Shown here one piece after another: positions 20,489 through 57,729 of a stretch of DNA of 64,000 nt (position 1 is the stretch's first letter; each line of letters starts with the position of its first letter). Source of the DNA: Deltaproteobacteria bacterium (GTDB taxonomy: Bacteria > Desulfobacterota > Desulfobacteria > Desulfobacterales > Desulfobacteraceae); the NCBI GenBank assembly GCA_013151635.1, contig JAADHV010000110.1, forward strand, positions 62,001 through 126,000. Reading direction: 5' to 3'. The notes under the pieces were generated by a model. It made no database searches and had not been told where the DNA came from. It worked only from the letters and a program-made list of their open reading frames with translations. Position numbers and translations under genes: made by a program.

Positions 20489-20587
20489 CCCAAAACATTA
20501 CAAATAAGAATTTAAGTGCTCAAGCATTTCTTTGAGGCTTTTGGGAAACATGGAAAAAGGATTTACAATTTCAGGGAGGAAGAGGCA

Positions 20588-23488
20588 ATGACTTTAAAAA
20601 TAAACACCAACATCGCAGCATTGAATGCCCACAGGAGCATGCTTAAAAATGACAGCATATTAGGGGATTCACTGGAACGACTTTCCACAGGACTTCGAAT
20701 CAACAAGGCAGCCGATGACTCATCCGGAATGGCAATAGCTGACTCCTTAAAGGCCCAATCCCTTGGGATAGGGCAGGCAATCAGAAATGCAAATGACGGA
20801 ATCTCCATGGTACAGACTGCAGACGGTGCATTACAAGAGTCTATCAATATCATTAATACCATAAAAACAAAAGCTATCCAGGCTGGATCAGACGGACAGA
20901 CTACCGGTACAAGAAGAGCCATACAAAACGATATCGACAAGCTTTTAAAAGAGCTGGATGCCATAGCAAAAACGACTTCCTTTAACGGACAAAAGCTTTT
21001 ATCCGGCTCCTTTACCAACAAAGCCATCCAGATCGGGGCATTTGCCAACGAAACAGCCAATATCTCAATCGGATCATCCGAGGCCAATAAGGTAGGGCAT
21101 ATCTCCCAGGCGGATTTAAGCCTTGCAGGAAATAACGGGGGAGAAGTCCAGCTGACCATCACAAGTTCCATTACCGGTGAGAAATTAACATTAAACACAA
21201 TCGACATTCAATATAACAATAAAAAGGAGAACGGTATTGGTGCACTTGCAGACGAAGTAAACAGGTATACTTCCATTACAGGCATCAGCGCAAAATCCGT
21301 TACCGAAGCCACCACCATCTCTTCCATAAAGGCTGGCACAACAGGCTGGGATTTTGCGATCAACGGCATAACCATTGGTGCTATTCCCGTTGAGGCAAAT
21401 GATTACTCAGGTTCTCTTGTTAATGCAATAAACAGCAAATCCGCTGAATCAGGAGTGGAAGCCTTTCTGACTATTGATGGAAAACTGACCATGAAATCCA
21501 TTGACGGAAGGGCCATAAAGGTAACAGGGTCCATAACTGACGTAATGGGAAGCACGTCCGGCCAAATGTCTGCCCTGGGATATTTAAAACTGACCCAGAG
21601 TGGTGTCAGCCAGTTTCAGATCAATGGAATAGGGGCTGGTGCAACAGGCGGAGATATAACCATTTCAGGAGACCTGGAAACTGTAGAGGATTCTGTCATT
21701 GCTTCTGGTTCAACCATAAAGACAGGCTCCAAGTTAGCCTCGGGTTCCATTCTAGGCGGGGACATGCTTGTTGAATCAAGTATCGGATCGACCCAGATGG
21801 ATTATAGCCTTAAATCAGGTTCAACACTTTATGCTACAACCCAGATAGCCAAGGGTACGGAACTCGGCGGAGCAATCACTGTAGGAGGAGACACCATTGC
21901 CAGCAGCTCCACCGGGACAACTTCCCTTGAAGAAGATATGCTGATCACCGCAGGGACCACACTTGAAAAATTTACGACTTTAGGAAAAGGGACTGTTGTA
22001 ACAACAGCTTTTACATCATCAGCATCAGGCTCTGTAGTCACCTATAATGTAGGAAACACATTGACATCATCTGTCCTTTTAACGCGCGATGTAACTGTAA
22101 ACGCCAGTATGACGCTTAAATACAGCAGTACGGCTGCTGATAATTCAAAAATCAAGGCAGGCTCCATTCTTGCAAACGGCTCCCATCTGGGGGCAGAATT
22201 TGAAATCGGGAAAAATTATAATTCAAATGCAGCAAATGTTCAAGTGACAACCGGGGTTGCCACAACCACTGATATTTATCTTACGGCTTCATTGACAGGA
22301 AGTACAGTGGGGGGAGCCACGATAAAAGCCGGGAGCCTCCTTGCTGATAATACCGCCCTTATTCTTGCCTCTGATTCAACAGGGACCATGAGCTGGACCG
22401 GCCCCACATTAATCACGGACTCCGGCACTATTGAGTATGGGGATACTGTGCAGAGAGGCCAGGTTTATACACTGTCCGGCGACCAGGTCCTGTCCGGGGA
22501 TCTTGTTACAGAGGTCAATGGCGGTACCACTTATGATTCCTACAATATTACCAGCGGTTCTGTCCTTGTGACAGGGTTCAACGCTATTGATCTCACATCA
22601 GGCGGTACAGGTGAGACAGCCACACTGACATCTTCGACAATGGCAGATGATATGACCCTGAAAGCCGGTTCGGAGTTAGCCGCATCAAGCAAGCTTCTGG
22701 CCGGCAGTGAACTTGGAAACAACACCTATGTCATGGGCGGCTCCCTTTCTTCTTCTGCCACGGATATTACAACTTATGCCAGGACTGAACTGAAAAGCGG
22801 CTCAAAAATAGAAAGCGGGAGTATCCTGGCGGAAGGCTCTACCATTGGCGGCTCCATAACCCTGGCCTCCCTGAAACAGCTTGACTCAGACATGAGCGTA
22901 ACTGCAGGCACTTTGCTCGCAGCTAACACAATCCTTAAGGCCGGGACTGTCCTTACCCAGGACATGACCCTCAACAGTGCCACAAGTGGCGCATCTGCCA
23001 CTGAGATTGAAGTCAAAGCAGGGGACGTTTTAACTACTGATCTTTATGTTGATGCCGATACCACACTGTCCGAAGATATGATGCTTGCATCAAAAAGTAC
23101 CCTGGAAGCCGGGACCATTCTTGCTGTTAATACTTCAAATGCCGGTACTGTTGGATTGAGCGACACGACAACTTATCGACTTGCTGATGTTTCCGTGCTT
23201 GACCAGGAGCATGCCCAACGGGCGATCAGCATAGCAGATTCAGCCTTAAAGGGGCTTGATGATGTTCGAAGCAATCTTGGCTCCGTGCAGAATCAACTGG
23301 CTTCAACCATCTCAAATCTTTCTGTGACAAAAACCAATATCCAGGCCTCCGAATCTTCGATAAGGGATGTTGATTTTGCAGAGGAATCAATGATTTTCTC
23401 AAAGATGCAGCTTCTTGCCCAGACCAGTTCATATGCACTGGCCCAGGCCAATGCATCAGCTAAGAATGTCATGAACCTCTTGCAATAA
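20588..23488 (+). CDS. fliC: Flagellin, giant (966 aa), second copy
   Basis: 966 residues, the same length as the first copy. The start at 20588 follows GGGAGGAAGAGGCA and aligns with the paralogue (KINTNIAALNAHRSM); the ATG at 20516 would add 24 unrelated residues. Conserved D0/D1 helices frame a central repeat-rich region that parallels the first flagellin segment by segment (AINGITIGAI; DMTLKAGSELAASSKLLAGS), with small compensating insertions and deletions. The C-terminus ends VMNLLQ rather than LLSLLK. It is likely a minor or differently timed filament subunit because its promoter is sigma-54 type, as for hook-stage genes. Confidence 0.93.
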   Translation: MTLKINTNIAALNAHRSMLKNDSILGDSLERLSTGLRINKAADDSSGMAIADSLKAQSLGIGQAIRNANDGISMVQTADGALQESINIINTIKTKAIQAGSDGQTTGTRRAIQNDIDKLLKELDAIAKTTSFNGQKLLSGSFTNKAIQIGAFANETANISIGSSEANKVGHISQADLSLAGNNGGEVQLTITSSITGEKLTLNTIDIQYNNKKENGIGALADEVNRYTSITGISAKSVTEATTISSIKAGTTGWDFAINGITIGAIPVEANDYSGSLVNAINSKSAESGVEAFLTIDGKLTMKSIDGRAIKVTGSITDVMGSTSGQMSALGYLKLTQSGVSQFQINGIGAGATGGDITISGDLETVEDSVIASGSTIKTGSKLASGSILGGDMLVESSIGSTQMDYSLKSGSTLYATTQIAKGTELGGAITVGGDTIASSSTGTTSLEEDMLITAGTTLEKFTTLGKGTVVTTAFTSSASGSVVTYNVGNTLTSSVLLTRDVTVNASMTLKYSSTAADNSKIKAGSILANGSHLGAEFEIGKNYNSNAANVQVTTGVATTTDIYLTASLTGSTVGGATIKAGSLLADNTALILASDSTGTMSWTGPTLITDSGTIEYGDTVQRGQVYTLSGDQVLSGDLVTEVNGGTTYDSYNITSGSVLVTGFNAIDLTSGGTGETATLTSSTMADDMTLKAGSELAASSKLLAGSELGNNTYVMGGSLSSSATDITTYARTELKSGSKIESGSILAEGSTIGGSITLASLKQLDSDMSVTAGTLLAANTILKAGTVLTQDMTLNSATSGASATEIEVKAGDVLTTDLYVDADTTLSEDMMLASKSTLEAGTILAVNTSNAGTVGLSDTTTYRLADVSVLDQEHAQRAISIADSALKGLDDVRSNLGSVQNQLASTISNLSVTKTNIQASESSIRDVDFAEESMIFSKMQLLAQTSSYALAQANASAKNVMNLLQ

Positions 23489-30092: not shown

Positions 30093-33000
30093 TTATCTTG
30101 CTGATATCAATGTTGTCAGCATTTCATCTGCAATGGTCAATAGTTTGGAAGCTGCTGAAAACGCATGCTGGTATTTCATAAGTTTTATCATTTCCTCGTC
30201 AAGGGATACCGCTGATACGGCATCCCTCTGCTCTGTCATCTGATTGGCCATAATATCTGCAAATTCCCTGGAGGTTTTAATGCTTCTGGCTTTGACACCT
30301 AATGTTCCGACCATATTATTATAATAATCATCCAAACTGGATTCAATGATGCTTGACTGGGCTTTTGTTCCTCTGTTAAACTCCCATTGCTTCATTGTTC
30401 TGGTCTGGTACTGGATATCTGCCATTGCCAGGGCATTTTCATTATCACCCTGGGTAATGAGCCCTGTGGTATGATCTATTTTCCCTGCAGCAATGTATTT
30501 TGTATCACTTAATTTTTCATTTATTTTCATATTTGACGCTGCTGTCCCCTTGAAAAGAGTGTTAATCCCTGCCACTGCCATGATGCCTGCGGATGCTGTT
30601 GATGAATCATCCCCGAATGCATAACCAATATCCTTGGCATCATGTTTAAGCAAATCAAACCGGACATAACCGTCTCCGGTAACCTTTTTTGCAAAATTGA
30701 TTTCAATGTCCCCGACACCGTCACCATTCAAATCAACTTTAAACCCGTTATCATCACCGCCTTGGGGCATTATACTTGCAATACCGCCTGTGGTGTCATT
30801 CAATATCCCCCAATTGCCGGATGTCCTGGTAAATTGAAAATCAAGGCCTTTAAAATTCAAAGCGGTCCAGTCCAAAACCGTTATGCTTGTATTTTCTTTG
30901 CTGAAACCATTTTCACCTGAATACTCAATATTTTCCATATTAAAATAATTGTCGGAACTTTGAAGTTTTAATTGTTTATCAGGGGTAATGGTGGCCTTCA
31001 TTCCCCCGGCCTTTTTATTGAATTGATCTTTAAAAGAATCAAGGGTCCAGTGCCAGTCGGACATAAGCTCACCCGTAGAATTCCCGGCTGCTGTGGTTGA
31101 AGCAGGGATGCCGGATTCATCCGTGGTAACGGTAAACACATCACCATCAAACAGGGTCCCGTCATAAAAATCAAAAATCATCCCGTCCACTTCAACTTCA
31201 ACAGGAGCATCAGGTGTGTAAGGCGGGGTATGGCCTTTTATCTCAAATGTGCCTGAAGACACGGATGAATTCCATTCAATTGTAAGATTATCCACACCAG
31301 TTGCCGGCTCATGCCCTATTTTACCCCCATGGGTTACCTTGAAATGGTAAATATCATTAATACTTTTTGCCTGCCTGAAAATCCTTAAATCCATTGGGTC
31401 AGGCGCGCCTGAGGTATCAGTATTAACGATCAGGGTATTTCCCGCCACCAGATCTCCTTTGGAAATATCAAAAGAAACAGTTTGGGATCCGTTTTCCGTA
31501 ATGGCCACCGTGCCTTTATCTTCAATGGTGAGAAGTCCTGAAGAGCCTGTAGAATCACCATTTTTGTCAAACCGTTCCCATTTTATAACTGCCTCGCCCG
31601 TATACAAGGACGATGTTGAAAAATCCCTGTATGTATTTCCAGACTCTAAAAGATCATTTTCAGGATCACTTGCACCATCCCCTGTTCCGGTTGAAACAGC
31701 AAGTTTGGCATCATTGCCCACACTGTCGGCAAAATTGGTAATCTTTATGGGATCTTCAAGTGATGCTTTCTTGAGAATAGAAACCGATTTACCATTGCGG
31801 ATAAAAGTATAATCTGTGCTTGAAATATCTGCATTCAACTCATTATAAAGCTGCTGTGCAAGCCCGGCTTCCGTTGTTCCTGCCCCTGTTGATACGACAA
31901 AGCTTACAGTGTTGCCGTCCACGTCAAAAGAGATTGTATCACCGGCATCAAAATTGGTAAACCCATCCTCACCGCCCAGTGTGATGATTGAACTTCCTGT
32001 GGTTGCTGTACCAGCCGTACCGAATAGCCCGGTACTGGCCTTTGTGTCAGACTGGATTGACATGCCTGAATCTAAAAGAGCTGTAATAGTCCCCGTGATA
32101 ACAGCCGAAGTTGTCGCACCTGCCCCTGTAAAGGTACCTTCTGTGATAATTGCTGATGTTCCTGCTACAGCAGTCGTTATTGTTGCAGGCATCCCGAAAG
32201 TGACGGTGTCCCCGCTTGTTGTAAGAGAGTTGAATGTCTCTATATCATTGGCCGCAGCCGTAAATTCAAGGCTGGTATTACCCGCTGCCGATGAGCTGCC
32301 GGAAAGGGAAGTCAGGTTAATGGTGGCATCATCTCCAGTATCATTTCCGGCATCCTTTAAAGTTACATTTGACCCGTCAGTGGTCCTGATGAGAATTGAA
32401 TTTGCAGTAGTACCCCACTTAACCGTAAAAGGTTTGCCGGAAAGGGCTGTTGTGAATGCATTATAAAAAACCGCTGAAACTTCTGCCTGGTCTGTGACGT
32501 CTGCCACACCTGTCAGATCAACAGAAACGGTCGTGCTCGTTGTTGGCACCCCGTCCGATGCAATCTTAAAACTGACCGTATCCGTATTATTAAAATTAGA
32601 AAAAGTATCCAGCTGGACACCTGCATTATCTAGAATTTCAAAATCCTGAACACCCAGTGTGGCACCCTTGTCACTTGAAAATTTCAAACCGTCTGCATAG
32701 AGATCGGTATCGGAATTTACATCATTGACAGCATTGACAGCCTCTACAAGTGAATCCTCAAATTGAACGGCAAGGGTTGCCGAACTTGAGTCCACAATAA
32801 AACTTTTTGCATAAACATACCCGTCCACATAAAGGGAATATTTTACCTCGTCCCCGTCCTGGGCATTGGATATTCCTGAAATATCAAATTCAGCTTCTGT
32901 TTTTGAAGCATATGCTGTAACCCCGTCAACAGTATTCAATGCCTCGGCTATGGATGCAGCAGACCTTTTTGCATCACCGCCGGAATCCTTGATATCTATT

Positions 33001-34340
33001 TTATGTGTTCCTGTTGAACTGCCGTAAACCGTAAGGATCTGGTCTGACATTACATTATCAAGAGCAGTTGAAGCACCGCCTGCTGAAGTTCCCCATATTT
33101 CCGCAAGCTTGTCTCCATTTGTCTGTGTGACAATTTTATCCCCTATATTTCCCTCATCAACCACCGTAAGTTTATACCGTGACTGATTTGCTCCGGGTGC
33201 CATGCCCTGCCAATTGGAGAGTTTAGCATCAGAAACCCCCATGTCCATTAAAATTTTGCGGTATTGGGTTTCTGTTGTGGAACTGTCCTTTGTCCACATG
33301 GTAAAATCTTTTGTATAATCAATCTTATCGCCAAATGCATAGCTTGAAAGCCAGCCGCTTTCATCAACGCTATAGCTTCCGGTCACAGGCCCTGTGTAAT
33401 ATTCCTGGCCTGCTCCCTGAGAATTCTGATAATTCATTGCCCATATCATTTCCCGTGACAGCTCATCCACCTGGGATTGATATTTTGGTATGACTTCATC
33501 TCTTATTTCAAGCCATCCGCCAAGTTTTCCTCCACTGATTTCATCTGTTATATCAAATGTGGCACCAAAAGACCCCTGCCACATGATCTGCTTGCCCTTC
33601 ATTGAAAGCTTGTAACTATTTGTCCCGTTTAAAAGGGTTGATCCGTTTGCACCATTGATTATCAGAGAACCGTTCCCTTGTGTAATCACATCAACATTGA
33701 TTAATTCCCCCAATTGATCGACAAGGCTGTTTCTTTGATCTCTCAAATCATTTGCAGTCCTGTTTGCCTCAAGACCCAGTATTTCACGGTTCAGATCGGC
33801 AATCTGGCCGGATAATGAATTAATCTGGGTTAAGGCGGAATTGATCTCGGATGTGACATCAGAAGAGGTTTTGTCAAGATCTGAATTTAATGAATTAAAC
33901 CTTTCTGCCAGTTTAACGCCTTTTTCATAGATCTGGACTCTTTCCGAAACCCCCAGAGGATTATCACTTAAATCATGCCATGCATTCCAGTAATCACTAA
34001 GTATGCTGTTCATACTGGCGTCAGAATTCTCGTCAAAAAAGCCTTCAAGGACTTTCATATAGGACTCTGCCTCTTCAAACATGGACTGGGTGGATTTTTC
34101 ATCTGTCAGCCTGTTTTCAAGCAGTTGATTTACAGATTGCTGGATCTGTGAGACATTGACACCGGTTCCGAAAAGAAACCCTGCATAAAGCGCAGGTTTA
34201 TTACTTATATGATTGGCATTCTGCCTTGAATAATCAGGGTTGTTTACATTGGCGATATTATGCCCTGTAACATTCAGCCCGTACTGCTGGGCTGCAATGG
34301 CTGTTTTTGCAATATTCAGGGTAGAGGAAAGACCGCTCAT
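30093..34340 (-). CDS. flgK: Hook-filament junction protein 1 (HAP1), giant
   Basis: 1415 residues, more than twice typical FlgK. Residues 1-300 are the conserved N-terminal part (LSSTLNIAKTAIAAQQYGL; VTGHNIANVNNPDYSRQ), and the last 160 are the C-terminal helices (SLDEEMIKLMKYQHAFSAAS; ADEMLTTLISAR). About 900 residues of Ser/Thr/Asp-rich insert separate them, including a flagellin_IN-like piece and, at 1160-1251, a module also found in FlgL and FlgE (GNWGILNDTTGG and VDLNGDGVGDIEI). It joins hook to filament. It starts three bases after flgN. Confidence 0.93.
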   Translation of the reverse strand: MSGLSSTLNIAKTAIAAQQYGLNVTGHNIANVNNPDYSRQNANHISNKPALYAGFLFGTGVNVSQIQQSVNQLLENRLTDEKSTQSMFEEAESYMKVLEGFFDENSDASMNSILSDYWNAWHDLSDNPLGVSERVQIYEKGVKLAERFNSLNSDLDKTSSDVTSEINSALTQINSLSGQIADLNREILGLEANRTANDLRDQRNSLVDQLGELINVDVITQGNGSLIINGANGSTLLNGTNSYKLSMKGKQIMWQGSFGATFDITDEISGGKLGGWLEIRDEVIPKYQSQVDELSREMIWAMNYQNSQGAGQEYYTGPVTGSYSVDESGWLSSYAFGDKIDYTKDFTMWTKDSSTTETQYRKILMDMGVSDAKLSNWQGMAPGANQSRYKLTVVDEGNIGDKIVTQTNGDKLAEIWGTSAGGASTALDNVMSDQILTVYGSSTGTHKIDIKDSGGDAKRSAASIAEALNTVDGVTAYASKTEAEFDISGISNAQDGDEVKYSLYVDGYVYAKSFIVDSSSATLAVQFEDSLVEAVNAVNDVNSDTDLYADGLKFSSDKGATLGVQDFEILDNAGVQLDTFSNFNNTDTVSFKIASDGVPTTSTTVSVDLTGVADVTDQAEVSAVFYNAFTTALSGKPFTVKWGTTANSILIRTTDGSNVTLKDAGNDTGDDATINLTSLSGSSSAAGNTSLEFTAAANDIETFNSLTTSGDTVTFGMPATITTAVAGTSAIITEGTFTGAGATTSAVITGTITALLDSGMSIQSDTKASTGLFGTAGTATTGSSIITLGGEDGFTNFDAGDTISFDVDGNTVSFVVSTGAGTTEAGLAQQLYNELNADISSTDYTFIRNGKSVSILKKASLEDPIKITNFADSVGNDAKLAVSTGTGDGASDPENDLLESGNTYRDFSTSSLYTGEAVIKWERFDKNGDSTGSSGLLTIEDKGTVAITENGSQTVSFDISKGDLVAGNTLIVNTDTSGAPDPMDLRIFRQAKSINDIYHFKVTHGGKIGHEPATGVDNLTIEWNSSVSSGTFEIKGHTPPYTPDAPVEVEVDGMIFDFYDGTLFDGDVFTVTTDESGIPASTTAAGNSTGELMSDWHWTLDSFKDQFNKKAGGMKATITPDKQLKLQSSDNYFNMENIEYSGENGFSKENTSITVLDWTALNFKGLDFQFTRTSGNWGILNDTTGGIASIMPQGGDDNGFKVDLNGDGVGDIEINFAKKVTGDGYVRFDLLKHDAKDIGYAFGDDSSTASAGIMAVAGINTLFKGTAASNMKINEKLSDTKYIAAGKIDHTTGLITQGDNENALAMADIQYQTRTMKQWEFNRGTKAQSSIIESSLDDYYNNMVGTLGVKARSIKTSREFADIMANQMTEQRDAVSAVSLDEEMIKLMKYQHAFSAASKLLTIADEMLTTLISAR

Positions 34341-40596: not shown

Positions 40597-40863
40597 TCAC
40601 TGTCTGGAATTCATTGAATATACAAAGGCCAGAAGCTCTGCCACTGCCACGTAAATTTGTGAAGGAATTTCTTCATCAATTTCAAGGGACGAGAGTACCT
40701 CAATAAGGTCAGGGTCATCTTTTATCGGGATATCATGTTTCCTGGCAAGTTCAATAATTTTCTGGGCCACTTTGCCCTTGCCTTTTGCTGTTATCTTGGG
40801 CGCATTTTGAGTTTTTCTGTCATATTTTAATGCAACGGCTTTTTTCTTAAATTTTTTATCCAT
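40597..40863 (-). CDS. Free-standing FlhB C-terminal domain protein (FhlB/YlqH type)
   Basis: 88 residues matching the cytoplasmic domain of FlhB after its cleavage site: KKAVALKYDRKTQNAPKI, AQKIIELARKHDIPIKDDPDL, and PSQIYVAVAELLAFVYSMN. No membrane segments and no NPTH motif. Such proteins can replace the FlhB C-terminal fragment in export switching. It lies six bases after a FliK-like gene, the same pairing as ylqG-ylqH in Bacillus. It is last in the long fliL operon. Confidence 0.85.
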   Translation of the reverse strand: MDKKFKKKAVALKYDRKTQNAPKITAKGKGKVAQKIIELARKHDIPIKDDPDLIEVLSSLEIDEEIPSQIYVAVAELLAFVYSMNSRQ

Positions 40864-40869
40864 CTTATT

Positions 40870-41931
40870 TTAAATCACGATATTTAACACTTGGTCATCC
40901 CTTGCTGTTACCAGGGATTCAATAAAACTGCTTTGCTGGGTTTCTGCTTTTTTTGCTGTCTTGCATTCTACATTGTGAACCTGGTATCCAACATTTTTAA
41001 GCCTGGTTTTCAATTCAAAAATCATTGACTTAACATATTTGCAGGTATCATCATCCTTGAGTAAAAATCTGCCTGAAATTTGCTTTTTCAATATTGAAAA
41101 ATCTGCCCTCAAGGGGCCAAGACGGCTCATGTCCAGCAAAAAAGAGATGTTAATGAGTTTATCGCCATCCTTGTTACTGCTTTTATTTTTATCTCCTGTG
41201 TCTATTAACAGCTGACCGAAACTGAATGCCTGGTCATTAAAAACAGGGAAAGGCAGCAAGAACCGCCCTGAATCAGAACTCTGGTGATTCAGCAATTGAA
41301 AATTTTCTATGGTTGTCAAAAAGGAAGAGGCTGTTTTCAAAATTTCAGACTGCTTCGGGTCAGCCGCCAGCATCTCTTTGAGGATGCTGCCTTTAATATC
41401 CTGCTTTAATAGATTATCAAGGCTGAATTCCAGGGCTGATGATGACTTATTGCCAAGTAAAATCCCGGCAATCTTATTTTCCCATGTCATACCGCTGTTT
41501 TTAATTAATTTCGGTAAAAATGCCTTGTCTGCTTTTCCTGACTTTAAGGCCATACCATGTAACAGGTCTTTTATATTTGCGATCTTTGCCCCGGTGATAT
41601 CAGGTATGGATTCATTTTTCGAAAAAAAACCGATAAGAGATGATATCTGCCTGGTTGTCATTTTTTGAACCGGGCTGATAAGCTTTAGAATGACAGCATC
41701 CTTTTCCTGGATGACTCTTAGCTGGACATCCTCCCCGGGCTTTAGCAGCAGTCCTGTCTTTGCAAGCACTTTTTGACCGTTTACCAGAAGCCTGGCATTA
41801 CCATCCGGTAATAATTTTATTACCTTTGCACGGATAATTTGATTTTTTTTAAAGATCGGGAGACTTTGTTTTTTAGCATCATCCTTATTTATGACCACCT
41901 CAGAAGATGAAATATGGATACCACTGATCAT
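40870..41931 (-). CDS. Second FliK-like protein (YlqG type)
   Basis: 353 residues. An N-terminal part (IIRAKVIKLLPDGNARLLVN; LKPGEDVQLRVIQ) resembles a small OB-like barrel seen in FliK-related proteins. The C-terminus has LLDMSRLGPLRADFSI and then a helix with LKTRLKNVGYQVHNVEC, matching the hook-length control domain. It overlaps the DUF2802 gene by four bases and precedes the free-standing FlhB domain. A true fliK is at 58,922, so this copy may work with the small FlhB-like partner. Similarity is modest. Confidence 0.6.
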   Translation of the reverse strand: MISGIHISSSEVVINKDDAKKQSLPIFKKNQIIRAKVIKLLPDGNARLLVNGQKVLAKTGLLLKPGEDVQLRVIQEKDAVILKLISPVQKMTTRQISSLIGFFSKNESIPDITGAKIANIKDLLHGMALKSGKADKAFLPKLIKNSGMTWENKIAGILLGNKSSSALEFSLDNLLKQDIKGSILKEMLAADPKQSEILKTASSFLTTIENFQLLNHQSSDSGRFLLPFPVFNDQAFSFGQLLIDTGDKNKSSNKDGDKLINISFLLDMSRLGPLRADFSILKKQISGRFLLKDDDTCKYVKSMIFELKTRLKNVGYQVHNVECKTAKKAETQQSSFIESLVTARDDQVLNIVI

Positions 41932-42482
41932 CTGTCATTTTTCTCCATTGCAACAAACTTTTTTTTAAGGTCAATCACCAATTTTACTTCTCCTTTTGGG
42001 ATTGATAATCTTTGGGCAATGGAGTTGATATCAAAATTTTGATTATACATCTCGATAATCTGGTTTTGCTGGTCAAGCACAGCGTTTGAAGATGGGGGGA
42101 AAACGGTTATATTCCTTGTTTCTTCCAATTTCTTCTGCAATGCATTTGCTCTTGATAAAAGAAGATTAATACTTATGACCCTGGAATCCAGAGCATCGTT
42201 CAACTTATTTATTAATCTCTTTTTCTCCTTTATCTGCTCGTCAAAACTGATGGCGGCTTTTTGGGATTCCTTAACTAAAGGCGCAAGCATTTCAATAATA
42301 TCCCTTGCAGATCCTGATACAAATTCTGCATTTTCAGGTCCATCATCCTGATGATTTCGATCCTGTTCCATGAATTTGAGGTGATTGACCTTTTTGACAA
42401 ATAAAAACAAAAAAACAACCAGAATAAAATTAATAATAAAAAGAACCACAATCCAAAATTCAAGTGAGAATAATTCTATCAT
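41928..42482 (-). CDS. Membrane-anchored DUF2802-type flagellar accessory protein
   Basis: 184 residues: one N-terminal membrane helix (residues 8-30, FWIVVLFIINFILVVFLFLF), a coiled-coil middle, and a C-terminal helix-turn-helix-like end (IEMYNQNFDINSIAQRLSIP, KGEVKLVIDL) typical of DUF2802 proteins in flagellar loci. The function is unknown. It overlaps both neighbours by four bases, so it is translationally coupled in the operon. Confidence 0.65.
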   Translation of the reverse strand: MIELFSLEFWIVVLFIINFILVVFLFLFVKKVNHLKFMEQDRNHQDDGPENAEFVSGSARDIIEMLAPLVKESQKAAISFDEQIKEKKRLINKLNDALDSRVISINLLLSRANALQKKLEETRNITVFPPSSNAVLDQQNQIIEMYNQNFDINSIAQRLSIPKGEVKLVIDLKKKFVAMEKNDR

Positions 42483-42790
42483 GCCGTTGTATCCAGCAAC
42501 CTGCCCGGGGCATCAGGATCCGGATCCATTTTTTCTTGTTTTTTCTTTTCTCTCTTTTTTTTCTTTTCTTTTAATTTCTGCCTTCTTATAAGAGCCTCTT
42601 TCTCTTTTTTAGTTTTTAGTTTTTCAGCTTCATCAAACTCCTGAACCGTAGTGTTTGTCACAATTTCACTGACTTCCTGTTGCGCCACAGCCTGTTCCGG
42701 GGAAGGTTTAGGCGTGTTGGCCTGATGTGTCAACTCCTGTGCAACCCCGGACTGTTGTATAACAATATTATGTCCAGGTATGGCTGTCAT
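42479..42790 (-). CDS. Small charged protein of unknown function
   Basis: 103 residues. Residues 1-50 are Gln/Ser/Thr-rich and probably disordered; residues 55-90 form a strongly basic helix (KLKTKKEKEALIRRQKLKEK and more). There is no signal or membrane segment. It overlaps the DUF2802 gene by four bases and follows the multi-motif FliL-like gene by 13. I do not recognise a family. Coupling by overlap argues that it is translated. Confidence 0.55.
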   Translation of the reverse strand: MTAIPGHNIVIQQSGVAQELTHQANTPKPSPEQAVAQQEVSEIVTNTTVQEFDEAEKLKTKKEKEALIRRQKLKEKKKKREKKKQEKMDPDPDAPGRLLDTTA

Positions 42791-42803: not shown

Positions 42804-44447
42804 CTAACTTGCTTTAAAAGACTTAAAACTGACCCGGTTAATATAATGTCCGGGCAATACTTTTTTTAAAGTTGTTTCAACTATCCGCAGAATATCTGCT
42901 TCTGTGATATCTTCTCTTTTTCCGGAAGCAAGACCTTTATTTATGGAATCATAAATTAAATCCCGGTAAAAAGATAAATTGTTCAGGATTTCATGATATG
43001 CTCTTTGGTCTGAATAATCAATGGAGAGATCAGCCGTGATATAGGTCATATCTTTTGACAAGTCAGGTGCCAGTATGACAAAATCCTTTAAAAGCATGGT
43101 GCCCGGCTTTTTAATATCAGGTTGTGTTTTCACATTGATATCAACCGTCTCGACCTCAATCTCTCTTTGTGTATCAGAAGCAAGGTTTGCAACAGGGGTG
43201 GCAAGCCGTGGTTCCTGGCCTGGCGGTTTACCTGAAAAAAAGATAAAATAGGTTGACGGGACTGCTATTCCCAGAACAATGAGTGCAGACATGCAGGCGA
43301 CCACAAGTTTTGACTTATACCATCCAGATCTTACTTTTGAAGATTTTTTTACAGGTTTTAGAGACTGTTCATCATCATCTCCCTGCAAGACGACCTGATC
43401 CTCATCACCTTCATCGTATTCATCAAAGTTTTCATTTTCCAGTATATCTTCATCATCGACAGCATCATCCATGGTGCTGTCAAATTCATCATCCATTAAA
43501 TCACCAAGGACATCTTCATCCTCCTGGTCAGCAGCCATTAACAGCGTGTCAATATCATCCTGGGATATGAGGACATCATCATCCTCTTCGTCATTGTCAG
43601 GCTCAAGCAGAAGCGAGTCAATATCTTCCTGGGTAACATCTCCATCTTCATCTTCAAAATCAAGCACTTTAACATCTGACTCAGGCTTTAAAAATTCTTC
43701 TGTATCATCTGGTGTCTTTTCTTCTGGAACATCCGATTCCGGTTCCGGTTTCACTTCAAGCTCCGGTTCAGGTACAGGCTCCGGTTCTTCATCCAGGATT
43801 ACAGGTTCGGATGCAGGTTCGTTATCAAAATTTTTAATTAAATTATCTATCGTATCCTGGGAAATCAGGCTGTCCTGAACTTCCACAGCTTGAGATTCAT
43901 CAATTATATAATCATCTTCCTGGTTTTTGTTTTCAAGAACAGGTTCAGCAGGTTTTTCAATTTCTGTTTCATTGATTTTTTCAACAACTTCTTCTTCAAC
44001 AGGCAGGATGTCCTGCTCATTATTGTCTTCCATATCACCCGGGATTTCACTTTCACTCTCTTTATCTTCCGCCTGCCCGCCGCCCATAAGGTTGTTGATA
44101 TCATCCTGGGAAATCGTTTCAAGGTCATCTTCATCAAGATCTTCACCCGATGAAGAAACTTTCCCTCCGGACGATGCATTCATTAACTGGTCAATATCGT
44201 CCTGGGAAATGAGTTCCATTTCATCATCTTCGGAATCATCTTCATCCAAAGGGTCTTCTTTATCTGGTAAATTTGAATTCATCAACTGGTCAATATCATC
44301 CTGGGAAAGCTCTCCTAACTCATCAACCACATCAGCATCATCGTTTGCAATATTTTCTTCTGCTTCTTCAATGGAAGTGGAGTCTAAAAGTTTATCAATA
44401 TCATCCTGGGATATTAAACTGTCTTCTTCTAAAATTGGATCAGACAT
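42804..44447 (-). CDS. FliL-like membrane protein with seven FliM-type SQDDID motifs
   Basis: 547 residues. The acidic N-terminal 370 residues hold seven copies of a ten-residue motif close to ISQDDIDxLL, at 12-21, 47-56, 80-89, 112-121, 195-204, 271-280 and 294-303. FliM in this window starts with [14 protein letters not shown], the element that binds CheY-P and FliN in FliM. A single membrane helix (about 380-404) follows, and residues 445-547 (TMLLKDFVILAPDLSKDMTY; ILNNLSFYRDLIYDSINK; DILRIVETTLKKVLPG) resemble the periplasmic FliL domain. The cytoplasmic part could bind several switch or chemotaxis partners. It follows fliA by 17 bases. Confidence 0.7.
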   Translation of the reverse strand: MSDPILEEDSLISQDDIDKLLDSTSIEEAEENIANDDADVVDELGELSQDDIDQLMNSNLPDKEDPLDEDDSEDDEMELISQDDIDQLMNASSGGKVSSSGEDLDEDDLETISQDDINNLMGGGQAEDKESESEIPGDMEDNNEQDILPVEEEVVEKINETEIEKPAEPVLENKNQEDDYIIDESQAVEVQDSLISQDTIDNLIKNFDNEPASEPVILDEEPEPVPEPELEVKPEPESDVPEEKTPDDTEEFLKPESDVKVLDFEDEDGDVTQEDIDSLLLEPDNDEEDDDVLISQDDIDTLLMAADQEDEDVLGDLMDDEFDSTMDDAVDDEDILENENFDEYDEGDEDQVVLQGDDDEQSLKPVKKSSKVRSGWYKSKLVVACMSALIVLGIAVPSTYFIFFSGKPPGQEPRLATPVANLASDTQREIEVETVDINVKTQPDIKKPGTMLLKDFVILAPDLSKDMTYITADLSIDYSDQRAYHEILNNLSFYRDLIYDSINKGLASGKREDITEADILRIVETTLKKVLPGHYINRVSFKSFKAS

Positions 44448-44464: not shown

Positions 44465-45211
44465 TTAATTAACGTAATTCTGAAGCCTGGCCTTCAGTTT
44501 TACCAGGATCGCTGTATGGATCTGGCATATCCGCGACTCGGTCAATGTAAGGACTTCACCGATTTCTTTTAACGTCAATTCGTCATAATAATACAGCGAT
44601 ACAACAATCTGTTCTTTTTTAGTTAAAGTTTTAATGGTTCTGGCCAGAACAAATTTAAGTTCCTCCCTGTCAAAACAATCGGCAGGAGTATCATTCCCTT
44701 TAATGCCGGATTGAAACCTTGTTTTCGAATATGTATCATTTTTCTTTGTTTTGATGAATTCATCAAGGCTTAACACAGATGCCCCGTGAATATTTGTGAG
44801 CATATCATAATATGCTTCAAGCGTGACACCTAACTCTCCACAGATTTCTTCATCTGTTGCAGATGAACCTTTCTGGTCTTCAATGGTTTTAACGGCCTTG
44901 GTAATATCCTGGATTTTTTTTCTCATGGACCTTGAATAGGGATCCATGCTTCTTAATTCATCAAGAATTGCCCCTTTAATACGGTATTGTGCATAAGTCT
45001 TTAAACTGACGTGTTTGGAAACATCAAACTTGTCGACCGCATCAATCAGTCCCAGTGATCCTGCAGAAACCAATTCATCAAAGAAAACACTGGAAGGAAG
45101 GCGCATGGCAAACCTTGCGGCAATATGCTTCACAAGATATGAATACTCAATAATGCTTTTTTCACGCCATGAGTCTTCATGCCTTTTATTCTCCGGGTAC
45201 TGCTTTTTCAT
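44465..45211 (-). CDS. fliA: Flagellar sigma factor sigma-28
   Basis: 248 residues. Region 2 (EYSYLVKHIAARFAMRLPSS; FDVSKHVSLKTYAQYRIKGA), region 3 (LDELRSMDPYSRSMRKKIQD) and region 4 (LVVSLYYYDELTLKEIG-like stretch ending in RICQIHTAILVKLKARL) are all present. FliA should drive the flagellin promoter at 17,238 and probably fliD. The gene follows flhG in the long operon. Its antagonist FlgM is not in the window. Confidence 0.95.
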   Translation of the reverse strand: MKKQYPENKRHEDSWREKSIIEYSYLVKHIAARFAMRLPSSVFFDELVSAGSLGLIDAVDKFDVSKHVSLKTYAQYRIKGAILDELRSMDPYSRSMRKKIQDITKAVKTIEDQKGSSATDEEICGELGVTLEAYYDMLTNIHGASVLSLDEFIKTKKNDTYSKTRFQSGIKGNDTPADCFDREELKFVLARTIKTLTKKEQIVVSLYYYDELTLKEIGEVLTLTESRICQIHTAILVKLKARLQNYVN

Positions 45212-49375: not shown

Positions 49376-50449
49376 TTAAAATTTCCTTCCCTTTAATTTG
49401 TATACATAAGCCAGTAATTCCGCCACTGCCTGATATAGCTCCATTGGAACCTGCTGACCTATATCTACACTACTATACAAATTCCGGGCCAATAGTTTGT
49501 CTTCAACCAGGGGAACATCATTTTCCATTGCAATCTTTCTTATATTTTGTGCAATCGGCCCTGCTCCCTTTGCGACAACTTCCGGCGCATCCATCTTACT
49601 GCCGTCATATTTTATCGCGACCGCAAGACGGGTGGGGTTGGTGACAACCACATCAGCCTCCGGCACCTCGGCCATCATTCTTTTTCTTGCCGCCTCATGC
49701 TGGAGCTGCCTGATCCTTGATTTTACCTGGGGGTCACCCTCAGTCTGTTTGGTTTCATCCTTGACCTCTTTCTGGGTCATTTTCTGATCTTCTAAAAATT
49801 TCCACTTCTGATAAACATAATCCAAAACAGCCACAATGATCATTATCAGGCAGACCTTGATAAAAATCCAGAATGAGACCTTGAGGGCAAATAAAAGGAT
49901 ATGCCCTACACTATGATCATACAGGCGTGATATTTCAACAAGCTCCCCTTTGATTGAATAATAAGCCACCATGGAAATCACCCCTACCTTTATCAGGGTT
50001 TTTACAAATTCCACCACAGCTCTTGAAGAAAACTTTTGTTTAAATCCGTTAATGGGGTCAAGCCTGGAAAGTTTAGGTTCAAGCGATTCCCAGGACACAG
50101 TAAACCCGACCTGGGCGAAATTTGAAATAAGGGCAATCAATACTATGGCAAGCATGACAGGGGCACATGCAAAAATAATTTTCTGGGTATGATAGGCAAG
50201 AAGCCTCACTGCCTCAAGCTTGTTCAACAAAGGAATTTTTGTAAAATTGTAATTAAAAAGAAACACTGCAACAAGGTTTTTATAAACATAAAAAGCTGAT
50301 GCATACAAGGATATAACACCTGCGAGAAGAACAAATACGGACGGGATCTCAATACTTTTTGCAACCTGCCCTTCTTCCCTGGCCTTGGAAAGTTTCCGCG
50401 ACGTAGGATCTTCTGTTTTCTCTCCTCCGCTTTCAGGATCTTCTGCCAT
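49376..50449 (-). CDS. flhB: Export switch protein, with NPTR at the cleavage site
   Basis: 357 residues: EKTEDPTSRKLSKAREEGQV at the N-terminus, four membrane helices and a cytoplasmic domain (AVAELLAYVYKLKGRKF at the end). The autocleavage motif, normally NPTH, reads NPTR here (Asn271-Arg274, codon CGT). FlhB switches substrate class from hook to filament after cleavage between Asn and Pro. Since the Asn-Pro bond is retained cleavage may still happen. A second, free FlhB C-domain is encoded at 40,597. Confidence 0.94.
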   Translation of the reverse strand: MAEDPESGGEKTEDPTSRKLSKAREEGQVAKSIEIPSVFVLLAGVISLYASAFYVYKNLVAVFLFNYNFTKIPLLNKLEAVRLLAYHTQKIIFACAPVMLAIVLIALISNFAQVGFTVSWESLEPKLSRLDPINGFKQKFSSRAVVEFVKTLIKVGVISMVAYYSIKGELVEISRLYDHSVGHILLFALKVSFWIFIKVCLIMIIVAVLDYVYQKWKFLEDQKMTQKEVKDETKQTEGDPQVKSRIRQLQHEAARKRMMAEVPEADVVVTNPTRLAVAIKYDGSKMDAPEVVAKGAGPIAQNIRKIAMENDVPLVEDKLLARNLYSSVDIGQQVPMELYQAVAELLAYVYKLKGRKF

Positions 50450-52991: not shown

Positions 52992-53984
52992 TTAACTCTC
53001 ACAATCTGTTGTTAATTTATCTTTTATTTTAAACGCCTGGAACCCTCTTTGTACCCCTACATACCCTGTTAGTTTTTCCAACCCGTCCACATAACATTTC
53101 AGAGGCTCGCTTGCATCATTATCCAGCTGGATAACGTCGCCCTTCTGCATATATATCAGCCTCTCCCCGGTAATTTCAGTCCGGCCCAACTGAATTTTAA
53201 CAACGACCTCTGATTCCAAAATGACTTCTCTGATCATCCTGCGCCAGTTTGTATCTATCTCTTCAGCCTCGGTCTGGACACCGGAGGACAATTTATTTCT
53301 CATGGGCTCAATCATGGAATAAGGATAACAAACCACAAGGTTCCCGGCTGACTGCTCAAGCTCAATTTCAAACCTTGTTACAAGAACAAGGTCTGTCGGC
53401 AGAACAATGGCGGTAAACTGCGGGTTCATTTCCGAGCGGATAAGAGATGCTTTGACAGGCTCAATAGGCGCCCAGGAAGCTTCAATGTTCTTAAGGACCG
53501 CCACCACGGCCTTTTTAATCATCACTTCTTCAATAGTTGTAAACTCACGCCCCTCAACTCTTGCTTTCCCCAGGGCCTCACCGCCAAAAAAAGTATCAAT
53601 AAGATTATAAACAAGCTGGCTTTCAAAAACAACAAGGCCATGCCCTCTCAAAGGCTCAAGCCGAAAAACATGAAGGCTTGTCGGGACAGGCAGGCTTCTT
53701 ACGAATTCAGAAAATTTCAATGTATCAAAAGGATTGGCACTGACATCCACATTGGTTTGAAGCAAAGATGACAACGTGGCCCGAACTTCCCTTGAAAGCC
53801 TTTCATTTATAACATCAAAAGTGGGCATCCTTGCCCGTACAACCTTATCCTGGCTGGTAAAATCATAGGCAATGATACCATCAACTGGCTCGGGCGTGAC
53901 AACATCTGCTTCAGTTTCTACTTCACCGGAATCCAATCCGTCTAGTAGACTGTCAACTTCATCCTGTGATAAAATTTCACTCAT
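52992..53984 (-). CDS. fliM: Flagellar switch protein binding CheY-P
   Basis: 330 residues. [18 protein letters not shown] at the N-terminus is the CheY-P binding element; the CheC-like middle domain and a C-terminal SpoA domain ([20 protein letters not shown]) follow. The N-terminal element is the one repeated seven times in the FliL-like protein at 42,804. It starts seven bases after fliL. Confidence 0.96.
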
Positions 53985-53991
53985 AATCTGT

Positions 53992-54612
53992 TCACTGCAT
54001 TATAAAATTGGTAAAATAAATATTCCTGACCGTGGGTTTAGGAAAAATAGAATTAATCCGTTTAAGCAAATTATATTTGAGCAAGATTTTGCCTTCAGGA
54101 TTCCTCAACACAAGCCAGGTCATCTCTCCAAGCTGTCCTGTGATGATTTTCCTTATCCGGTCCTCCATTGTATAAACTTGTTTTCTATATCTATGGTCTG
54201 TTAATTCCAAAGACAAATCCATGCTGATAAGGCCCATTGTTGAGCTTGTCTTAAGCTTGATGCGCTCAAACGGCTCAAGTTCAACAATGTCTTTAAAGAT
54301 AATTTCTTCCTTGCCGGGCAATTTTTTTTTGATATCTTTATTTGCCGTAATTTTGTTTTTTACTTCCTCACCTTTCCGGGGGCCTGGTTTAAAGAAAAAG
54401 AACCAGGCTCCTGTGACAAGACTTATTAACAGGAAACAAGATATGGCAATGATAATGACTGCTTTTTTTGACCTGAAAACTTTTTTAACCAGTTTTTTAA
54501 ATAAGGACTCTTTTTTTATATCCTCAATTTCACCTGAAGAATCATCCAAAATATCTTTCATGGACTCATCATTAAAATCATCATTCATTTTATCTAAAAT
54601 ATCTTCAGTCAA
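53992..54612 (-). CDS. fliL: Flagellar basal body-associated protein
   Basis: 206 residues from a TTG start supported by AGGAG six bases upstream. A short acidic cytoplasmic part, one membrane helix (about 52-73, AVIIIAISCFLLISLVTGAW) and a periplasmic domain with FKDIVELEPFERIKLKTSST match FliL, which surrounds the stator near the rod. It is the first gene of the long fliL-to-fhlB operon, which has a sigma-54 promoter. Confidence 0.88.
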   Translation of the reverse strand: MTEDILDKMNDDFNDESMKDILDDSSGEIEDIKKESLFKKLVKKVFRSKKAVIIIAISCFLLISLVTGAWFFFFKPGPRKGEEVKNKITANKDIKKKLPGKEEIIFKDIVELEPFERIKLKTSSTMGLISMDLSLELTDHRYRKQVYTMEDRIRKIITGQLGEMTWLVLRNPEGKILLKYNLLKRINSIFPKPTVRNIYFTNFIMQ

Positions 54613-54930: not shown

Positions 54931-57729
54931 TTAACGTTTCATTTGAATAACGGTCTGCATCATATCATCAATTGTTGTAACGGTCTTTGAATTTGCCTGG
55001 AAGCCTCTCTGGTTGGTTATCAATGAGACAAATTCCTCTGAAATATCCACATTAGACATCTCGAGTGAATTCGGTGCAAGGGTTCCAAGGCCGTTTTCCC
55101 CGGGTTTGTTGGTAATAGCGCCACCGCTTTCTCTTGTTTCCCTGAAAAGGTTCCCGCCCTCATTGGAAAGGCCGAAATTATTTAAAAATTTTGCAAGGCC
55201 TACGCGGAAAAGCGGGATTAATTGCCCGTTGGAATAAACCCCTGTAAGGATACCGTCTGATGCGACGTCCACTCCCTGTAAATCTCCTGCCGCATACCCG
55301 TCGGCATCCTGGAAAACAGTTGAAGACGATTTGGAGTATTGAGTGGTTGACAATGAATCATTTACAAAATTTGTGCCGTCATACTTTGTGCCTATATTCA
55401 ATTTGATATCGGTTTTTGTGGTACCGAATTCCCCGCCTAAAAAATCTGTTGTAAACTCAAAATAGCCTGTTTTCTTAATATCATCCTTGGCAATCTCCGT
55501 CCATGCAGTGGAGCCCTTGATATCAAAATTAATTTCACTGCGGTCATTATAAGGATGGGTGCTTGTTCCGTATTTTAACGAATCAGTAAAAGAAAATACA
55601 ATATCTTCCTTGTCGGTTTCATTTCCAGAGCCATCCAGATCAATCACAGCCCTGGTCTGATCACCTTTTAAAGTGGCTTTTGCATACTCTTTCGGGACTT
55701 TGTTGGGATTGGTAGTGAACCTGAAGCTGTTTGTATGGGCAAGGGTACCTCCGCCGGCTGTAACATTGAATTCAATATCATTGGTCAAATCAGCATCAAA
55801 ATCCAGTGTGATACCGGTTGTATATGACCCGTTTGTTGCAACAACAGCACTGGGATATTCCAGGGGTGGCGCAGGGTCTATCTTAAAGGCAATGCTCTGG
55901 CTGCCAACAGTTGTCAGGGTTGACCCGAAAGTGTATCTTATAACACTGGAATTTGCCGTATTGGTTGTTTCCCATACCTGGAGCTGGACCTGGGTATTGG
56001 AGCTGGAAGAGGTCACAATTGACAACCCGGTACTGCCGCCACCGGCACTGGCACCCCATGCAGAGCCGTTCCAGTCAAGAGTTATGGTGGTTGCAACCCC
56101 TGCAGTGGTGGCCGATTCCATGGCACCCTGTCCCTCACCGGTGGGCGCGGAAATAATGCTTAAAACAGGGTCATTGGTTGGAGAAAACGTAAATGTTTCA
56201 TTTGTGAAATCAGCATCTTTTAAAGGCATATTCCAGTCCCAGGCCCCGAGTCTTGTGTCATAAATAAGGCTTATATCAGAAGATACCATGGTCATATCAG
56301 CAACATTAGAGTAATTAAAATTTGTACTTGTCGTATCAACGCTGCCGGTACTGTTTGTGGACACACTTGAAACAAGGGTTCCTGCCGAATAAGCAGAAGA
56401 CGGGTTGCTCCAATACCATTTTTCTGCGTTAGGGTTCCAGATAATTCCTAAATTTGTCGCATCTTCATCCATGACACCCGGTGCATTGATTTCAAGGGTT
56501 GTATTGTCATTGGCTGTATCTCCCGAATAAGTCAGGCCTTCTATCCCCTGTGTATGAAGATCATTTTTATTATTCACATCAAACCCTATGGAGTCCGTTG
56601 CAACAGCAGGTTGATCCAATTTAATTTTCAAATCAGGATCGACATCAGCCGAATCATCCGGGGTTAGCGTCAAGTAAATATTCTGATTATCAGAGTAGAC
56701 AATTTTGGCATTGCCATAATTATCCGGCAGATCAACAGCCGTAATCAGTCCGTCATTATTAACATCTGTAAAAGCCCATGCACTCCCGTCAAATTCCAAC
56801 TTGAAACCATACCCGTCAAGAGCCATGGCATCATAGTCAACAATTTCATATTCAACGTCTTTAACCGTGTTTACACCATTGGCGGTAAAATTTCCTATGC
56901 GTCCTGTAAATTTACTCATGGTAAAATCAAGGATATCACCCGAACTTTGGGAAAACTTAATGGTTCCCCTTGCAAGAAGGCCCTTGGAATTTGTATTCTG
57001 GACAAGATTTCTATTATCTTCTTCCGGGTTCATGGTCACAATATATTCCCATTCCGTTCCTGCTTTCTTATCATAGAATATGGATATATCATGGGTACTG
57101 CCCAGAGCGTCATAGGCCTTAACCACCGTCTGGTATTCATAACTCCCGGAGCCAATATAGGTAGTTTCCCCTGAATCCCACACATTTGAAAGGACAACCG
57201 CTTTTGAAGTTGAATCTGCATCAAGGTTTGTAATGGCTGTTATCTTCTCGCTCTTTTTAGGCGGGCTTGTAAACTCTGCAAGGACTAAATCCGTGATTGA
57301 TCCGACATCCTCTCCTGTTGTATCATCCAGATTCCATCCCTGAACGATATATCCTTCAGGGTTTACCAATTGTCCGGCCTTATCAAAAAAGAAATTGCCT
57401 GCCCTGGTATAAAATGTATTTTCAGAATTTGACTGGCGCATTATAAAAAAACCGTCACCGCCAATGGAGAGATCTGTTGTATTACCGGTAGACTCAAACG
57501 ACCCCTGGTCAAAGTTCTGGGCTACGTCCCCGACAGCCATACCACGGCCCATCTGGGCTGTGCCGGCCTGGGTGGCTACACTTTCATACAGGGTATCTGC
57601 AAAGGTTGTTCTTCCCTTTTTAAATCCAACGGTATTTAAATTGGCAATATTATTACCCACAACCTGCAGGGCATTTCCCATATTTTTCAACCCACTGGTG
57701 CCTGTAAAAAGTGAACTTGATAATGACAT
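54931..57729 (-). CDS. flgE: Flagellar hook protein, enlarged
   Basis: 932 residues, about twice the usual hook protein. The N-terminal rod-like part (LFTGTSGLKNMGNALQVVGN; NLNTVGFKKGRTTFADTLYE) and the C-terminus (LEMSNVDISEEFVSLITNQR; GFQANSKTVTTIDDMMQTVI) are FlgE. The extra mass is in the outer domains; residues about 305-385 (KLEFDGSAWAFTDVN to DSIGFDV) share a module with FlgK and FlgL. Hook length is set by the FliK encoded upstream. It follows flgD by 67 bases. Confidence 0.94.
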   Translation of the reverse strand: MSLSSSLFTGTSGLKNMGNALQVVGNNIANLNTVGFKKGRTTFADTLYESVATQAGTAQMGRGMAVGDVAQNFDQGSFESTGNTTDLSIGGDGFFIMRQSNSENTFYTRAGNFFFDKAGQLVNPEGYIVQGWNLDDTTGEDVGSITDLVLAEFTSPPKKSEKITAITNLDADSTSKAVVLSNVWDSGETTYIGSGSYEYQTVVKAYDALGSTHDISIFYDKKAGTEWEYIVTMNPEEDNRNLVQNTNSKGLLARGTIKFSQSSGDILDFTMSKFTGRIGNFTANGVNTVKDVEYEIVDYDAMALDGYGFKLEFDGSAWAFTDVNNDGLITAVDLPDNYGNAKIVYSDNQNIYLTLTPDDSADVDPDLKIKLDQPAVATDSIGFDVNNKNDLHTQGIEGLTYSGDTANDNTTLEINAPGVMDEDATNLGIIWNPNAEKWYWSNPSSAYSAGTLVSSVSTNSTGSVDTTSTNFNYSNVADMTMVSSDISLIYDTRLGAWDWNMPLKDADFTNETFTFSPTNDPVLSIISAPTGEGQGAMESATTAGVATTITLDWNGSAWGASAGGGSTGLSIVTSSSSNTQVQLQVWETTNTANSSVIRYTFGSTLTTVGSQSIAFKIDPAPPLEYPSAVVATNGSYTTGITLDFDADLTNDIEFNVTAGGGTLAHTNSFRFTTNPNKVPKEYAKATLKGDQTRAVIDLDGSGNETDKEDIVFSFTDSLKYGTSTHPYNDRSEINFDIKGSTAWTEIAKDDIKKTGYFEFTTDFLGGEFGTTKTDIKLNIGTKYDGTNFVNDSLSTTQYSKSSSTVFQDADGYAAGDLQGVDVASDGILTGVYSNGQLIPLFRVGLAKFLNNFGLSNEGGNLFRETRESGGAITNKPGENGLGTLAPNSLEMSNVDISEEFVSLITNQRGFQANSKTVTTIDDMMQTVIQMKR

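Follow-up and report, generated by a model that had tools for sequence, protein, structure and literature searches.

Current models have the flagellar motor switch when CheY-P meets the N-termini of its roughly 34 FliM copies; E. coli FliM begins with a peptide of the SQAEIDALL type.

In FliM and FliY a conserved EIDALL motif is the binding site of CheY-P (PMC9126983), and the N-terminal segment of FliM (FliM-N) can be a flexible tether that hands CheY on to second sites (PMC7355467). CheZ owes most of its affinity for CheY-P to a short C-terminal helix, which is likewise flexibly tethered (PMC1447658). Reported contacts of FliL are MotA, MotB, FliG and FliF (PMC10127578). It forms decameric rings proposed to enclose the stators (PMC6426602), and FliL rings are described at stators (PMC11870540). 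The window (the whole stretch of DNA analysed, 64,000 nucleotides) contains a gene, here called the array gene, whose product joins motifs of the CheY-docking type to a FliL-like domain.

The array gene and its surroundings

The coordinates of the gene, its motifs and related genes are collected in Table 1. Starting at the N-terminus the protein forms an acidic tail of ~376 residues, of which 39% are Asp or Glu (counted on aa 1-365). The tail carries the seven motifs, with a conserved MAADxEDEDVLGDL stretch directly after motif 7. A Lys/Arg-rich stretch then leads into a single transmembrane helix, after which a linker connects to the folded C-terminal domain. From the position of the Lys/Arg-rich stretch before the helix the tail is expected to be cytoplasmic, and it is presumably disordered. 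An earlier note on this DNA had described seven SQDDIDxLL-type motifs in an acidic tail before one membrane helix, and this is borne out in the 547-aa open reading frame. Its wording 'near-identical' needs correction, the copies being similar and not identical.

Table 1. Positions of the array gene, its parts and related genes within the window
Feature	Residues (aa)	Position	Strand	Basis
Array gene: FliL-domain protein with N-terminal array of CheY-docking-type motifs	1-547	42804..44447	minus	ORF, 547 aa, ATG start
Motif 1, ISQDDIDKLL	12-21	44385..44414	minus	motif scan and FliM-trained matrix
Motif 2, LSQDDIDQLM	47-56	44280..44309	minus	motif scan and FliM-trained matrix
Motif 3, ISQDDIDQLM	80-89	44181..44210	minus	motif scan and FliM-trained matrix
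Motif 4, ISQDDINNLM	112-121	44085..44114	minus	motif scan and FliM-trained matrix
Motif 5, ISQDTIDNLI	195-204	43836..43865	minus	motif scan and FliM-trained matrix
Motif 6, VTQEDIDSLL	271-280	43608..43637	minus	motif scan and FliM-trained matrix
Motif 7, ISQDDIDTLL	294-303	43539..43568	minus	motif scan and FliM-trained matrix
Single transmembrane helix	377-405	43233..43319	minus	hydropathy and helix in predicted structure
FliL/SPFH-like domain, predicted periplasmic	449-546	42810..43103	minus	profile comparison, PDB profile search, predicted fold
FliM-type motif at FliM N-terminus	5-14	53943..53972	minus	motif scan; fliM gene 52992-53984
Canonical FliL adjoining fliM, a separate protein		53992..54612	minus	Pfam FliL E 3.2e-14; tree
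fliA-like sigma factor gene, conserved upstream neighbour of array gene		44465..45211	minus	sequence and context
DUF6115 protein, conserved downstream neighbour of array gene		41928..42482	minus	Pfam; neighbourhood conservation
103-aa Lys-rich protein, directly downstream of array gene		42479-42790	minus	ORF list

The genes on the minus strand run in the order flhA, flhF, flhG, fliA, array gene, 103-aa Lys-rich protein, DUF6115, FliK-like and a stand-alone FlhB C-terminal domain, the names being partly assigned from sequence and context. The 103-aa protein is matched beside the array gene in 22 of 23 family loci and has no significant Pfam family; it is conceivable that it is a basic partner for the acidic tail. 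The stand-alone FlhB domain (40597-40863, minus strand; 88 aa, Pfam Bac_export_2 E 4e-22) is present besides a full-length FlhB (49376-50449). Elsewhere in the window the plus strand encodes two adjacent giant proteins that resemble flagellin (17372-20272, 966 aa; 20516-23488, 990 aa), both with long Ser/Thr/Gly-rich middle regions. The minus strand encodes unusually long FlgK-like (30093-34340; 1415 aa) and FlgE-like (54931-57729; 932 aa) proteins.

The docking-type motifs of the tail

Composition shuffles of the first 365 residues (n = 20,000) contained one motif in 4 cases and none in 19,996. A scoring matrix trained on FliM alone, using 30 distinct N-termini from the 56 found, picks exactly the seven sites at a score of at least 8. 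Their scores lie between 8.7 and 19.7; the runner-up site reaches 3.1. At the same threshold 2000 shuffled tails gave a mean of 0.16 sites, with at most 3. The best single site per shuffled tail scored 4.2 on average and 21.9 at the largest; a single high score can thus arise by chance, and it is the number of sites that is the evidence. The shuffles rule out chance and composition as the source of the motifs. Recent slippage within the window gene is ruled out by Tandem Repeats Finder, which reports no array in the gene, and by codon differences among the copies, where 50 of 210 codon pairs differ synonymously and a further 69 change the residue.

The motif positions are 79-90% identical to those of eight relatives, compared with 41-57% for the spacers. 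Since the motif columns are conserved well above the spacers, the motifs are under selection, and this motif-specific conservation makes it unlikely that they are a generic acidic repeat, the reading that the earlier note had set against its own. Of 372 sites in 53 family rows, 363 keep Gln at position 4, 349 keep Ile at position 7 and 343 keep Asp at position 8; the sites were picked with the FliM matrix, which itself favours these letters.

A degenerate motif pattern matches three proteins of the window's own genome: the array ORF (four of the seven copies), FliM and a radical-SAM protein, which looks like a chance match. The motif is not a common genomic word; in this genome and 12 others clustered matches occur at the array locus alone (that of G043 is cut by a contig end). 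With a looser pattern the 12 genomes gave 21 isolated matches away from the locus besides FliM, versus 1 for a reversed control pattern. Twelve of the 21 were inspected, and each is a single copy in an apparently unrelated protein, for example a dimethylamine methyltransferase (PF09505). Coevolution of the motifs with FliM of the same genome is not seen; in G035, for example, the array carries SQSDLDALL and FliM differs. A PDB sequence search with the motif segment returned nothing useful.

The motif is the element that opens FliM, as the earlier note had held: the FliM-trained matrix recovers all seven copies, which are of the SQxx[IV]DxLL type seen in proteins with a CheY-docking motif. The tail of CheZ strengthens this identity. 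E. coli CheZ (1kmi_Z) ends SQDQVDDLLDSLGF and scores 22.2 with the FliM-trained matrix. CheZ was found in 10 of 56 genomes of the order (L252-L261), and all ten tails were inspected: two end SQDEVDALLKEFGF, two end in SQENIDALL plus a few residues, and six are looser relatives. Seven of the ten reach at least 8, two of them 30.5, and L254, L256 and L257 lie below the threshold.

That CheZ ends in a FliM-type motif is new here and, as a sequence comparison, favours CheY over FliN as the partner, because the unrelated FliM and CheZ share both the motif and CheY. Nothing found supports FliN, which the earlier note had also considered; the cited passages of PMC9126983 and PMC7355467 give CheY as the partner, and the FliN contact there is made by a CheY-FliM-N fusion. 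A CheY-type partner is probably available in the window's own genome, which has 13 CheW matches and, near one of them, CheY-like receiver proteins (named by eye).

While the motif occupies conserved positions in all of these proteins, its setting differs. FliM, a rotor protein, begins with a single copy; array proteins have a median of ~7 copies in a membrane protein that by homology does not belong to the rotor. CheZ is a cytoplasmic phosphatase with one motif, of the SQDxVDxLL type, at the end of its flexible tether, whereas the window protein has no Pfam match to CheZ, including its catalytic domain. Among 22 distinct array proteins compared with Pfam, L112 alone matched CheZ, at E 0.0013 and below the cut-off. 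The match covers positions 169-200 of 203, which is the docking end and not the catalytic part; it carries little weight, as the same repeats match SHS2_FTSA better (E 2e-5).

In other Desulfobacterota a second C-ring protein, FliN, has the motif (L178, L186, L189 and L190; the set of such FliN-like loci also includes L037, L209 and L215). The motif stands there once or twice in strict form at the N-terminus, and, unlike in the array protein, no membrane helix is expected. The FliN proteins inspected within the order gave no strict motif match. Looser motif-like peptides begin the FliN of G046, G136 and G183, genomes in which no array was seen. In the small genome G030 (L061) FliN is extended at its N-terminus by a long Lys-rich segment, where this extension is usually acidic.

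The FliL-like domain and the distribution of the array

The C-terminal homology to FliL proposed in the earlier note is supported by comparison of profiles, by a profile search of the PDB and by the predicted fold. Comparison by hhalign with 20 FliL rows of the same order gave a probability of 98.3% (single-target statistics). With E values up to 1 admitted, Pfam FliL is matched by 8 of 24 C-terminal relatives, the lowest value being 7.1e-8, and the relative L101 passes the curated cut-off with 27.4 bits; the window protein alone has no Pfam FliL match at E up to 1 and no NCBIfam FliL match. A profile of ten divergent members finds the FliL of the window's own genome at 2.1e-8 and solved FliL structures in the PDB at 3.2e-5 and 1.6e-4. 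The predicted structure has a mean pLDDT of 80.7, with most of the C-terminal domain above 90. Its best Foldseek matches are the FliL of H. pylori (7sgn; TM by target length 0.69-0.75) and of C. jejuni (9hmf_O; 0.75), followed by stomatin SPFH domains.

The array protein is a FliL-domain paralogue and not FliL itself. It shares with FliL (PF03748; H. pylori 7sgn, 6ahp; C. jejuni 9hmf) the single membrane helix and the C-terminal FliL/SPFH-like periplasmic domain and lies likewise in a flagellar gene cluster, and some of its relatives score against FliL models. The cytoplasmic N-terminus of FliL, however, comprises 2-28 residues (PMC10127578), far fewer than the acidic tail, and is without a motif array. 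Canonical fliL precedes fliM, whereas the array gene follows fliA, and the two proteins coexist in the same genome and fall into separate groups of the tree (100/100). A further Pfam FliL match in the window's own genome (L070, G000:C83:182-469) lies beside an LptF-like gene and is cut by the contig start. In agreement with the earlier note, which knew of no named family for such a protein, Pfam and NCBIfam give the window protein no relevant match. The array protein is real and conserved, and neither a described family nor, in the open-access literature on FliL, CheY and Desulfobacter, any such protein was found in the collections and literature searched.

The full protein occurs in 26 of 58 genomes searched (own included) and FliM in 31. 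Seven FliM-bearing genomes are without a match to the full protein (G010, G019, G036, G042, G046, G048 and G050), and in G036 a divergent copy of the orthologue was recovered with a profile. The full protein is present in G013 and G017, which have no FliM match. At the class level 123 of 289 genomes match the profile, many of the matches being ordinary FliL, and at the phylum level 42 of 296 genomes match, with 43 matches listed. Among the 28 new phylum loci given, none of the 27 outside the order has three or more strict motifs in one ORF.

Forty order-level regions were compared. A FliA match stands beside the gene in 36 of them and a DUF6115 match in 37. Of the four regions that lack fliA, three end early at a contig boundary and one is G163. 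The open frame at the match lacks any FliM-matrix site in 18 of the 40, which include ordinary FliL beside fliM (G163, L139) and a broken-looking frame in the array lineage (G285, L140). The strict pattern misses the single, doubtful site of G202, and the remaining frames have 1 to 18 sites each.

A tree of 88 rows was built, leaving out eight array-side rows that were incomplete or no orthologues and three FliL frames that read as nonsense; it rests on few columns and its bootstrap is not settled. Canonical FliL forms one group (100/100), as do the array proteins (98/98; 41 array rows and the motif-less G285). The motif-less orthologues and G202 branch outside the array group, and the simplest reading of these sequences is that the array was gained once.

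Possible roles of the array

We think it somewhat better than an even chance that the array protein, as a paralogue of FliL, offers CheY-P a multivalent array of docking sites at the inner membrane, close to the stators. Its one helix would anchor it in that membrane, and the periplasmic FliL/SPFH fold, which in FliL builds rings around stator units, would place it there; that rings form and touch the stators is established for FliL and carried over to the paralogue by analogy. The tail, displaying several copies of the peptide carried by the FliM N-terminus and the CheZ C-terminus, would bind activated CheY multivalently and may keep CheY-P pooled locally, next to the switch ring. Such a pool would change the speed and strength of the motor response, and we lean slightly towards its feeding FliM rather than competing with it. 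Collection of CheY-P by the protein is plausible from its sequence. The position next to the stator that the earlier note assigned to the protein holds as a functional inference but not in gene order, as no motA/motB-like ORF was noticed by eye among the ORFs listed.

A more tentative extension, to which we give rather less than an even chance, is that rings of the paralogue act as an antenna, gathering and timing the chemotactic signal at the stator side and not at the rotor alone. Ten subunits per ring, up to 17 rings and seven motifs would give ~1,200 docking sites, an upper bound with ring figures taken from other species (PMC6426602, PMC11870540), for comparison with about 34 FliM per motor (PMC1447658).

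The relation of the array to chemotaxis genes was followed through CheW, which is present in 48 of 50 family genomes that bear the orthologue and in 11 of the 20 that do not. It is missing from 7 of 76 genomes, four of which (G001, G030, G036 and G177) have FliM and the orthologue; G177 belongs to the motif-less lineage. Eight of the 53 family rows were set aside, as truncated or split genes or for want of a CheW count, which left 45 complete genes. The shortest (378 aa, 1 site) is that of G030, which is flagellate by its locus, and the second-shortest (413 aa, 4 sites) that of G001. The 43 complete genes with CheW have a median of 600 aa and 7 sites, and all are at least 484 aa. The flagellate G036 has 336 aa and 2 sites. 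Rank tests on the complete genes gave P about 0.01, with kinship ignored and G001 counted.

G030 (an 80%-complete genome) and G036 keep the flagellar export genes that G001 lacks. G001, of the same genus as the window, has a compact block of fliL, fliM, fliN, flhF, flhG, array gene and DUF6115 (L332, G001:C124:1-20000; also L151). Its locus is without fliOPQR, flhB, fliA and flgE, and flhA is a 39-residue trace. The flagellum of G001 is probably being lost, the alternative being a retained subset with another use, so this genome says nothing about chemotaxis alone; with most flagellar genes missing from the locus, it was withdrawn as evidence for motif loss with chemotaxis. The two clean flagellate genomes that remain, G030 and G036, are too few to prove anything, and it counts against the link that FliM retains its motif in both of them and in G001. 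Few sites occur also despite CheW, in G196 (1), four g107 genomes (3-4) and G029 (3), and motif-less orthologues occur in chemotactic genomes; the array is therefore dispensable.

The array could instead be a sink for CheY-P that competes with FliM and shortens signals, buffering in lineages without CheZ. We regard this as unlikely, although CheZ grips CheY through a motif of this type and its distribution fits in part. Among the 11 genomes with a motif-less orthologue, 6 have a strong CheZ match (E 3e-20 to 3e-46); of the 39 array genomes, 4 have a weaker one (E 2e-6 to 2e-8, still above the cut-off of the family), and six other genomes have none. The six strong cases, however, form one tree group (98/91) and may be a single event, while the other five motif-less genomes are also without CheZ and the four array genomes do have a CheZ-like protein. 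Moreover, no phosphatase domain is seen in the array protein.

It is distinctly improbable that the direct partner of the motifs is a component of the C-ring or stator (FliN, the FliM middle domain, FliG or MotA), the tail being a mechanical tether of FliL rings or stators to the rotor. The contacts reported for FliL (PMC10127578) would suit such a tether, and the motif of FliM is kept in G001, G030 and G036, all without CheW, which hints at a CheY-independent role. Against this, the same kind of motif is borne by CheZ, which is not a motor part, and the published partner is CheY.

That the tail serves as an acidic spacer of low specificity, in which motifs lacking a partner multiplied by duplication, is already disfavoured and very improbable: its acidity, the site number of 1 to 18 across array proteins and the recently duplicated look of some relatives' copies (for example L023, at ~33-residue spacing) are set against motifs conserved far above the spacers, synonymous changes separating the copies in the window gene, and sites kept in 41 of the 42 tree rows of the array group.

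If the preferred reading of a CheY-P array near the stators is true, the stator ring would hold several-fold more CheY-docking sites and with them an added control point, for which no test was found in the open-access literature searched. It could serve for local buffering, a faster search, or as a sink where CheZ is missing. With the orthologue present in 50 of 70 family genomes, and cultured Desulfobacter and Desulfospira species among the carriers, the proposal is open to direct test.
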